Source: Chthoniobacter flavus
GTDB lineage: Bacteria; Verrucomicrobiota; Verrucomicrobiia; Chthoniobacterales; Chthoniobacteraceae
Assembly: GCA_945861435.1 (NCBI GenBank)
Contig: CAMAUX010000022.1
Location: 1 to 64,000 of the forward strand
Length of the DNA: 64,000 nt
Direction: 5' to 3'
Below are positions 414 through 6,917 of this stretch, in pieces. How positions within the stretch are numbered: position 1 is the first letter of the stretch; each line of letters opens with the position of its first letter. The notes beneath the pieces were generated by a model that worked only from the letters and a program-made list of their open reading frames with translations, was not told the origin of the DNA and made no database searches. A program made the position numbers and the translations under genes.

Positions 414-1316
414 TCAGGGAGCTGAACTCAGGGCAGCCCGAAATCCGTAGTCGCAGTCGCAGTCGGCCGGGTCGTTGAAGTTGCGAGTCCCCACCGCGCA
501 GTAGTCCCCGTTGTAGCTCCCGCTCCCGCCACGGAAAACCCGGTTCGTGCCCGAATAGATATCAAAGCACCATTCCCACACATTCCCGCTCATATCATGC
601 ATACCCAGTTCACTCGCAGCCTTGGTCCCAACCAATTGCGTCCCACCCCCAGAGTTACCATTATACCACACCGCCGCGTCGATATCGTCGCTGCCACTGT
701 AAGTGTACCCCTTCGTCTGCGTTCCTCCACGCGCTGCCCACTCCCACTCCTTTTCACTCGGCAGCCGGTACCCATCCGCTGACGTATCGACCTCAGGCAC
801 CAATTCCCCAGTCCGGTACACCGCCCCATCAGAGAGCTTGTACACAGGCGTCTTCCCCTCCCTCTCACTGCGCGCATTGCACCACTTCAACGCCTGATAC
901 CACGTCACATCCGTCACAGGATAATTGCTCCCATTCCCAGCCCCCACCCCATCGAGATCATAGCCCTTGTTCGCCACACTCCAATCTCGCACCTGCTCAA
1001 ACTCCCCCCACTGCACAGGATATTTCCCAATATAAAACGTGCTCACTTCCACAGGCCCCAGTCCTGAAGAAGCAGGCAGCACGCCTCCGTCAACCCTGCA
1101 AAAGTCCCCCATGAAGGGCGCTGACTCACCAGCAGCAGCAGCTTTGAACGCAGCCAGGAGCCGCTTTCGCTCCCCAACTTTCTCAATCCCAATGTCCTTC
1201 AGATCGCCCTCGGACAGTTCACAAAGAATCGAGTCCCGGACGCCTTGATCCGTAAATGCCTCAAAGAGATGCTCGAGTTGTTCTCCTGCTAGAATCGATC
1301 TGAGATTTCTGTCCAT
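414..1316 (-). CDS. SAM domain plus FGE-sulfatase/C-type-lectin-fold protein
   Basis: About 300 residues. Residues 1-60 resemble a sterile alpha motif (LEHLFEAFTDQGV, LSEGDLKDIGI, ERKRLL), a protein-protein interaction fold. The rest is an FGE-sulfatase (SUMF1-like) domain with the DMSGNVWEWC and VFRGGSG motifs and a terminal GFR. The two copper-binding Cys of true formylglycine-generating enzymes are absent, so the protein is probably not catalytic. The segment between RGGS and GFR (about 438-530) is rich in Tyr, Asn, Asp, Cys and Phe encoded by NNC codons. That is how variable regions of diversity-generating-retroelement target proteins look. The frame could begin at a TTG at 1358, but ATG 1316 is preferred because the SAM fold starts there. 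An AT-rich stretch (1345-1425) upstream probably holds the promoter. The function is unknown. Confidence 0.8.
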   Translation of the reverse strand: MDRNLRSILAGEQLEHLFEAFTDQGVRDSILCELSEGDLKDIGIEKVGERKRLLAAFKAAAAGESAPFMGDFCRVDGGVLPASSGLGPVEVSTFYIGKYPVQWGEFEQVRDWSVANKGYDLDGVGAGNGSNYPVTDVTWYQALKWCNARSEREGKTPVYKLSDGAVYRTGELVPEVDTSADGYRLPSEKEWEWAARGGTQTKGYTYSGSDDIDAAVWYNGNSGGGTQLVGTKAASELGMHDMSGNVWEWCFDIYSGTNRVFRGGSGSYNGDYCAVGTRNFNDPADCDCDYGFRAALSSAP

Positions 1317-5873: not shown

Positions 5874-6917
5874 TCACGGTGCCTGCCCATCCCGCACACA
5901 CCGGAACCCAAGGTGCGCAAACGCCGCGCCGGCCTGCTGCCTCATCCGCGAACCCGTGCGGTATCCTTTGCTATAGACATCATTGCACAGGAACGATCCT
6001 CCGCGCACCACGCGCTCCGAGCCAGTCGAAGGCCCCGGAGGATTCTCCCGCGCACTGTGGCTGTAATAGTCCGCTCCGTAATAATCCGCGCACCATTCCC
6101 ACACATTACCCGCCATATCATGCAGGCCGAAACCGTTGGCGAGAAAACTCGCCACAGGCGCCAAACCCTTGAATCCATCCTCACCCACATCCTGTTGGGG
6201 AAAGCGCCCCTGCCACAGGTTCGCCATCCAACGTCCCTCGGGCAGCTTCTCGCGTCCCCACACATAAGGCACGTGGATAAGCCCGCCACGGGCTGCGAAC
6301 TCCCACTCCGCCTCGGTCGGAAGCCGCTTGCCCGCCCACTTCGCATAGGCGCACGCATCCTCCCATGCCACCTGCACCACAGGATGTTTCCCGCGCCCAT
6401 CCAAATCCGAACGCGGGCCCTCCGGATGCCGCCAGCTCGCACCAGGCGTAAGCTTCCACCACTGCATCACATCAGAGAAATTCTCCACCCTCTCCGGCGC
6501 GCTGAACGTGTATCCGCCCACCGCCGCGCCGGAACCTTCCACGGGCCGCTCCGCCACGGTCACGTACCCAGTGGCATCCACGAAGCGGCCGAACTGCTCA
6601 TTAGTCACCTCGGTGCGGTCCATCCAAAAACCGCCCACTTTTACATCATGCAAAGGCTGCTCATCGGGCTGCCCGTCATTGGCCCCCATCGTGAACTTCC
6701 CCGCCGCAATCCACACCATCCCCCCGGACGCATCGGAATTGCGCACAGCCGTCGCATTGCGCAGACGCCGGATGCGCATCGCCTCCCGGCTCACCCACAG
6801 CGTGCTCATGAGGATGAGCCCCAGCAGCAGTCCTGAGATGATCAACGCCGTGCGCGTGGCTGGCGTCATGAACCGACGTTCCGAAGGATCAGGAGTGGGA
6901 TTGGACACGACGTCCAT
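5874..6917 (-). CDS. Membrane-anchored FGE-like (SUMF1) protein
   Basis: 347 residues. A single N-terminal membrane helix (about 23-43, TALIISGLLLGLILMSTLW) is followed by an FGE-sulfatase domain starting at GGMVWIAAGKFTMG, with DRTEVTNEQFGRFV, RLPTEAEWEFAARGG and DMAGNVWEWC. In true formylglycine-generating enzymes two Cys five residues apart bind Cu(I). Here the first is present (GGSFLC) but the position of the second is Ser (NDVYS). Conversion of sulfatase Cys to formylglycine is therefore doubtful. No sulfatase gene is in the window. It is more likely an extracytoplasmic member of the wider SUMF1 group. ATG 6917 is the first Met of the frame. Confidence 0.88.
   Translation of the reverse strand: MDVVSNPTPDPSERRFMTPATRTALIISGLLLGLILMSTLWVSREAMRIRRLRNATAVRNSDASGGMVWIAAGKFTMGANDGQPDEQPLHDVKVGGFWMDRTEVTNEQFGRFVDATGYVTVAERPVEGSGAAVGGYTFSAPERVENFSDVMQWWKLTPGASWRHPEGPRSDLDGRGKHPVVQVAWEDACAYAKWAGKRLPTEAEWEFAARGGLIHVPYVWGREKLPEGRWMANLWQGRFPQQDVGEDGFKGLAPVASFLANGFGLHDMAGNVWEWCADYYGADYYSHSARENPPGPSTGSERVVRGGSFLCNDVYSKGYRTGSRMRQQAGAAFAHLGFRCVRDGQAP

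Follow-up and report, generated by a model that had tools for sequence, protein, structure and literature searches.

The gene at positions 414 to 1316 of the window (the whole stretch of DNA that we analysed, 64 kb in length) very probably belongs to a dispersed family of genes that are targeted in trans by a diversity-generating retroelement (DGR), so that its product is a DGR variable protein. What we saw directly is the domain content of the protein, the pattern in its genome's own variable regions (VRs), cassettes in relatives where DGRs target this protein family, and fragments of accessory genes. From these we infer a template and a reverse transcriptase (RT) of this genome, the retirement of the window copy, and a role in sensing. 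An initial annotation had proposed that this SAM/C-type-lectin protein has a variable region of the DGR type, and this proposal is supported by an A-to-N pattern among the paralogs, by cassettes of template repeat (TR), VR, and RT in relatives, and by a match to TvpA. The gene and its domains are:

414-1316, minus strand: SAM plus FGE/C-type-lectin protein, predicted DGR variable protein (older, probably retired target), from the ORF, Pfam, and the TvpA match
1143-1283, minus strand: SAM_2 (sterile alpha motif), residues 12-58, a putative homotypic adaptor (Pfam E 3.8e-8)
432-1055, minus strand: FGE-sulfatase / C-type-lectin-fold domain, residues 88-295 of 300 (Pfam E 5.4e-30)

The ORF runs on the minus strand from an ATG at 1316 to a stop codon at 414-416 (300 amino acids). 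The FGE-sulfatase domain ends 5 residues short of the C-terminus, and the VR corresponds to residues 258-290. The best match of the protein among solved structures is Treponema denticola TvpA, a DGR product (PDB 2y3c, E 9.2e-23, with an alignment that spans the variable region). TvpA is a surface lipoprotein. Both proteins have a C-type-lectin/FGE-type domain with a C-terminal VR, and they align through RVxRGGS...DYCAVGxR...P...GFRxA. Unlike TvpA, the window protein has a SAM domain ahead of the lectin domain, and the same SAM-FGE layout is found in its own paralogs C50 and C30. The window protein does not look like a formylglycine-generating enzyme or an EgtB-like protein, as all of the listed NCBIfam equivalogs were far under their cut-offs. 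(A structure prediction for the window protein had a mean pLDDT of 65.5, with values below 50 over residues 199-289, and we did not rely on it.)

The strongest signal comes from the paralogs in the same genome. There are 29 FGE-sulfatase matches, of which 18, including the window gene, could be aligned by codon through the C-terminus. We treated 11 paralogs as the core set and kept six diverged ones (C62b, C25a, C10, C97, C18, and C102) apart. In the last ~60 alignment columns before the stop, the core paralogs have two kinds of codons. The variable kind comprises 17 columns with at least four amino acids each. At these codons, all four bases are found at positions 1 and 2, and the third base is C in 182 of 187 cases, versus 178 of 793 (22%) upstream, although the columns were chosen partly by a majority of third-base C, which favours this core count (but not the count for the window gene, below). 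Entropy by codon position is 1.61/1.39/0.13 for the variable codons and 0.76/0.71/1.08 upstream. The other kind is fixed: 26 columns are near-identical in DNA (CGG GTG .. CGT GGC GGG AGC TGG ... TGC GCG GTG GGG .. CGG ... CCG ... GGG TTC CGG CTG GCT CTG AGT TCA), and fixed columns 130 (GCG) and 131 (GAG) vary too, in several genes. Where residues are conserved, the codon is identical in 1151 of 1201 pairs (95.8%) within the VR but in only 1067 of 1718 pairs (62.1%) upstream in the same genes. We looked for the third-base-C pattern through the upstream halves of the paralog genes, and it does not extend there. In the six diverged paralogs, 4-11 of 16-17 codons at the core columns end in C.

Two free bases followed by a frozen third are, as judged from these codons, the footprint of one AAC-rich template that is copied with A-specific mutation. 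We know of no other process that freezes the third base while the first two vary. Also, the core paralogs retain A at 40% of the first two positions of their variable codons (149 of 374), which, if the template has AAC at all 17 codons, equals what five TR-VR pairs from relatives retain of their template A's (71 of 174, or 41%) and fits a single mutagenesis step from AAC. Serial copying from VR to VR would presumably have worn down the share of retained A. The targets carry a range of modules:

Core targets by Pfam: kinase (C76); weak TPR (C47); caspase (C62a); SAM (C50 and C30, plus the window protein); HYDIN-type Ig (C44)
Core targets without a Pfam hit in the N-terminus, as called: C93, C25b, C48, C11
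Diverged relatives by Pfam: caspase (C62b); Ig/laminin-G (C97); ubiquitin (C18)

The Pfam scan covered fifteen of the genome's own paralogs (which leaves out C91 and C10) plus four proteins of genomes G003 and G040. In C18 (L051), the ubiquitin domain (E 5.9e-30) is joined to a diverged VR-type FGE domain.

Mapped onto the window gene, the columns give these features:

420-545, minus strand: putative variable region, with columns defined on 11 paralogs and then mapped to the window
545-543, 536-534, 518-516, 515-513, 512-510, 503-501, 488-486, 482-480, 479-477, minus strand: predicted template-variable codons of the window VR, first part
476-474, 473-471, 467-465, 464-462, 458-456, 455-453, 452-450, 449-447, minus strand: predicted template-variable codons, remainder
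420-446, minus strand: IMH-like 3' end of the VR (GFR...LSS), diverged, with GGATTTCGGGCTGCC versus the frozen paralog consensus GGGTTCCGGCTGGCT (codon alignment)

So, the region that had initially been placed at 438-530 is real but slightly wider, running from about 545 down to 420. The initial annotation had also reported Tyr, Asn, Asp, Cys, Ser, and Phe on NNC codons between RGGS and GFR, and this was confirmed: 16 of the 17 window codons are NNC (at columns picked on the paralogs and not on the window), versus 43 of 257 in the rest of the gene (binomial P = 5e-12). It had called the NNC codons suggestive and favoured by high GC. High GC fails as an explanation because third-position C accounts for only 17% elsewhere in the window gene, but the caution is correct for a count on one gene. 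By a cruder count, which takes every codon from five residues after RGG up to GFR, NNC codons make up 18 of 24 in the window gene, 195 of 270 in the eleven core paralogs, and 70 of 166 in six ordinary FGE genes of the genome. As one of those ordinary genes (C5b) has 15 of 24 C-ending codons by this count, NNC in one gene alone is only suggestive; it is the comparison of paralogs that turns it into a strong signal. As a control, a second full-length FGE-sulfatase gene in the window (5874-6917, minus strand, E 2.9e-81) lacks the NNC footprint, as C is the third base in 8 of 27 codons.

At 11 of the 26 fixed codons, the window VR departs from the consensus of the paralogs. These differences amount to 13 base changes, only one of which is at a consensus A, versus 0-8 per gene in the core paralogs. 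The window VR is therefore tied to the core template by homology and pattern, not by near-identity. The changes extend to the 3' anchor (GGA TTT .. GCT GCC). In BPP-1, the IMH, or 3' anchor, guides integration of the cDNA, so the last overwriting of the window gene probably lies further back, and its present sequence may be fixed. Drifted both in its template-fixed bases and in the anchor for homing at the 3' end, the window copy has the marks of an older, retired DGR target, and it probably is one.

The enzyme and the template were not found in the assembly, which is a draft (5.35 Mb in 105 contigs, 96.09% complete) and whose contig C22 starts with the 64 kb of the window. There are three matches to the RVT_1 profile, on C42, C43, and C58, and none on C22. 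We rejected all three as DGR RTs: C43 encodes an RT of the group II intron type that has a GIIM domain, C58 has a contig-end fragment that by eye resembles a group II intron RT, and C42 encodes a retron-type RT with best PADLOC hits to RT_XIII and RT_X. (The C42 protein, L002, has 764 amino acids and a long N-terminal region.) The RTs of BPP-1 and of the congener G003 as queries found nothing in the assembly beyond the group II intron. Two VR queries and a pattern search also found no template repeat. None of the near-copies of the VR has the character of a template, as the strong DNA hits all proved to be either paralogs or remnants of 3' ends (the weakest hits, with E >0.04 over ~15-28 bp, were left out of the one-by-one reading). 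Two template candidates, at C26:39768-39830 (63 bp) and C15:108123-108168 (46 bp), were rejected as 5'-truncated 3' ends of VR genes. At both loci (L235 on C15 and L041 on C26), the truncated VR end is followed by the downstream element that is discussed below, and we regard them as remnants, which may stem from decay or from aborted homing.

There are hints of where the machinery might be or have been. The accessory protein of the G003 cassette matches a fragment ~200 bp downstream of the VR gene C93, on the same strand (E 5.3e-6), and, weakly, another ~850 bp downstream of C50, also on the same strand (59% over ~30 amino acids, E 0.10). These fragments suggest that a DGR core may once have stood there. 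In addition, 6 of the 12 VR genes (11 core plus the window gene) lie at most 3 kb from a contig end, where 11.8% would be expected (P 0.0013). The last-numbered contigs of the assembly are 3,112 and 3,146 bp, and four of the six RT contigs in relatives have lengths of 3,170, 3,240, 3,586, and 6,722 bp. Given such small RT contigs and the position of the VR genes near contig ends, the RT and template could be missing from the assembly without being absent from the genome, and a small contig with the DGR core may be among what is missing. The initial annotation had held that the lack of an RT or a template repeat in the genome would refute the DGR reading. That lack does describe the assembly, but the assembly is incomplete and tends to break near VR genes.

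In relatives, the same protein family is found together with DGRs. Homologs of the BPP-1 RT (E 2.5e-39 or better) are present in 6 of the 57 genomes that we searched, two of them congeneric. In five of the six, repeat pairs of the TR/VR type, with mismatches mostly at A of one copy, lie beside the RT. Mismatches fall on a template A in 25 of 26 cases in G001, 16 of 19 and 22 of 25 in G003, 18 of 22 in G012, and 22 of 23 in G044; the repeat pair of G053 is known from self-comparison alone. (The sixth genome, G020, had no TR/VR pair on its 6.7-kb RT contig.) The template of G044, GSNRVLRGGNWNNNANNCRVANRNNNSPGNSNNNNGFR, is in register with GTNRVFRGGSGSYNGDYCAVGTRNFNDPADCDCDYGFR of the window. The cassette of the congener G003 (L174, G003:C71, 3282-9709) contains, in order, a caspase-FGE target, an HRDC-type accessory gene, an RT (GLPIGSLVSQ), a TR, and a second caspase-FGE target. 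Its VRs are at the same place in the same family as in the window protein. In contrast to the dispersed family here, that cassette is complete and local, with two VRs that flank the core, and its fixed codons are different (GFRPALVPSR). At L184 (G053:C6), which is perhaps a prophage, the RT is 50% identical to that of BPP-1 and is accompanied by three repeats of 98 bp, of which one is template-like and two are variable-like.

Across named loci, a DGR-like RT is near the homolog in 4 of 80. The NNC count in homologs elsewhere is high in L094 (14 of 17) and in G040 (L179, 15 of 17) and low in L095 (7 of 17) and L097 (6 of 17), so the footprint is not in every homolog. Of L179, L094, and L095, the Pfam test for SAM covered only L179. 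Another genome, G034 (loci L240-L255), has eight VR-like DNA matches, and the five that we read at the codon level have a similar footprint with other fixed codons. The assembly of G034 has no strong DGR-like RT and gave just one, weak RT hit (E 1.6e-11).

A further feature counts against the DGR reading. A stretch of ~95 bp after the stop codon is common to C30, C50, C93, C25b, C91, C97, and C44 at 80-97% identity (L044:2408-2525 and paralogs), and simple retrohoming does not explain its conservation. Elsewhere in the genome, this stretch has only partial hits, at C11, C15, and C26. It is perhaps a target-site element. A DNA hairpin downstream of the VR was also considered and was dropped for want of a consistent signal: z-scores for the four stretches tested were 1.03 (C30), −2.44 (C48), 0.84 (window), and 3.36 (G003). 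Only the C48 stretch folds better than its shuffles, and no significant fold was found downstream of the window VR.

Could the pattern have arisen by ordinary evolution of paralogs, that is, by positive selection on the lectin surface combined with GC-rich codon usage and gene conversion? The shared downstream stretches do suggest duplication or conversion of 3' ends, and the C-ending codons of C5b show that an ordinary FGE gene can come close to the window gene by the cruder count. But third-position C is scarce outside the VR, both in the paralogs and in the window gene, and the same region is paired with templates in relatives. Also, neither selection nor conversion is known to us to freeze a third-base C at fully variable codons with invariant codons between them. 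We consider this account barely credible. It is much easier to imagine that the DGR core has truly been lost and that the VRs are fossils, which would have been frozen recently in the eleven core paralogs and earlier in the window copy and the six diverged genes. An assembly of this completeness with neither RT nor TR fits such a loss, as do the accessory fragments by C93 and C50 and the 5'-truncated VR remnants at C26 and C15. The congener G003 likewise has a VR of this genome's type (C195), while its own template is of another type. On the other hand, the fixed codons of the core paralogs are little altered, so any loss must be recent, and both the contig sizes and the clustering of VR genes at contig ends point to a gap in the assembly instead. 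We lean against the loss of the core but regard it as a serious possibility.

Another question is whether a second template, whose fixed bases differ slightly, gave rise to the window VR, in which case the window gene would belong to another DGR set and would not be retired. Its 3' end (GCT GCC CTG AGT TCA GCT CCC) is closer to the C26 remnant than to the core, and it shares a TGG to GGG change with C25b. However, the window's set of fixed bases is found in no second intact gene, and the changes to GGA, TTT, CGC, and GTT look like ordinary synonymous drift. A second template therefore seems unlikely to us.

Returning to a single template that acts in trans, we propose the following scheme. One template, AAC-rich at ~17 codons and homologous to the NRV-RGG-W...NNNANNC...NRNNN-P-N-NNNN-GFR of relatives, would be reverse-transcribed with errors at A. 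The cDNA would then overwrite the terminal ~125-135 bp of every target, with the invariant GFR-LALSS 3' end as its anchor. At least 11 paralogs would carry recent products of this process, on kinase, caspase, SAM, Ig-like, and secreted-looking modules. Each target would be a sensor in which the randomised C-type-lectin face binds a ligand and the attached module gives the output. For the window protein, the output would come from the SAM domain, by oligomerisation or by recruitment of SAM partners. The window copy itself would be a settled receptor: 13 of its template-fixed bases have drifted, some of them in the 3' anchor, and its overwriting has most likely ceased. A more speculative extension is that lineages whose families are large (this genome and G034) have no resident template or enzyme; both would come in on a separate and perhaps mobile replicon and mutate a dozen or more targets in trans, so that host receptor sets that share one patch are diversified only during visits. 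We think this improbable.

Systems of this general kind have been described. Passages of Vallota-Eastman et al. (2020, PMC7517822) report dispersed, remote variable proteins in cyanobacteria, with C-type-lectin domains fused to Ser/Thr kinases and orthocaspases, that are diversified from DGRs elsewhere in the genome; they include Nostoc all3226, a paralog that lacks a nearby RT but has remnant TR-VR homology. Compared to the proteins in those passages, the family here is in another phylum, probably Verrucomicrobiota as judged from the closest named hits, and adds SAM and Ig-like modules, and its RT and TR were not found in the draft. Similarly, sections of Dore et al. (2024, PMC10907252) describe conflict-system DGRs of multicellular bacteria, in which FGE/CLec sensors are coupled to adaptor and peptidase (caspase-like) modules. 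The systems of those sections resemble ours in having a diversified FGE/CLec domain with caspase-like and adaptor partners, but our Pfam-scanned target proteins contain no STAND NTPase, MoxR, or vWA domain. DGR-diversified FGE sensors with adaptor or effector domains have been proposed, in parts of PMC10907252, PMC7159879, PMC8195603, and PMC8144416, to be antigen sensors. Given these published dispersed targets and diversified FGE sensors, the kind of system is already known. The present family differs in its SAM partner, in the range of outputs that come under one inferred template, and in having been detected without an RT. In a full-text search of open-licence papers for the wording "diversity-generating retroelement" with "sterile alpha motif", we found no report of SAM as a partner of a DGR-diversified lectin domain.

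Our results suggest that a draft genome can hold a large family of DGR-diversified receptors and that the codon footprint among paralogs can reveal such a family without the RT. Surveys that are centred on the RT would miss it, because the enzyme is not in the assembly. And if kinase, caspase, and SAM-adaptor proteins have one inferred template in common, then the intracellular role of DGR targets could be approached by comparing different outputs on the same patch.

The flanks of the window gene are as follows:

1-149, no strand assigned: end of a multi-copy element, with an identical 149 bp that opens contig C78 and closes contig C33
150-306, plus strand: 5'-truncated HicA-like frame (FEIVRKSGSHIVLRRGPSGCVVPNHREIK...), apparently cut by the repeat at 1-149 (by eye)
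398-409, no strand assigned: 12-bp palindrome-like CCTGAACTCAGG just past the stop codon (from the sequence)

The initial annotation had expected the RT and template outside the window, to its left. No RT match lies on C22, and what adjoins on the left is the 149-bp multi-copy repeat, with no visible DGR core. Window position 1 is the first base of contig C22, and nothing is assembled further left. The reading frame at 150-306 presumably belongs to the HicA family.
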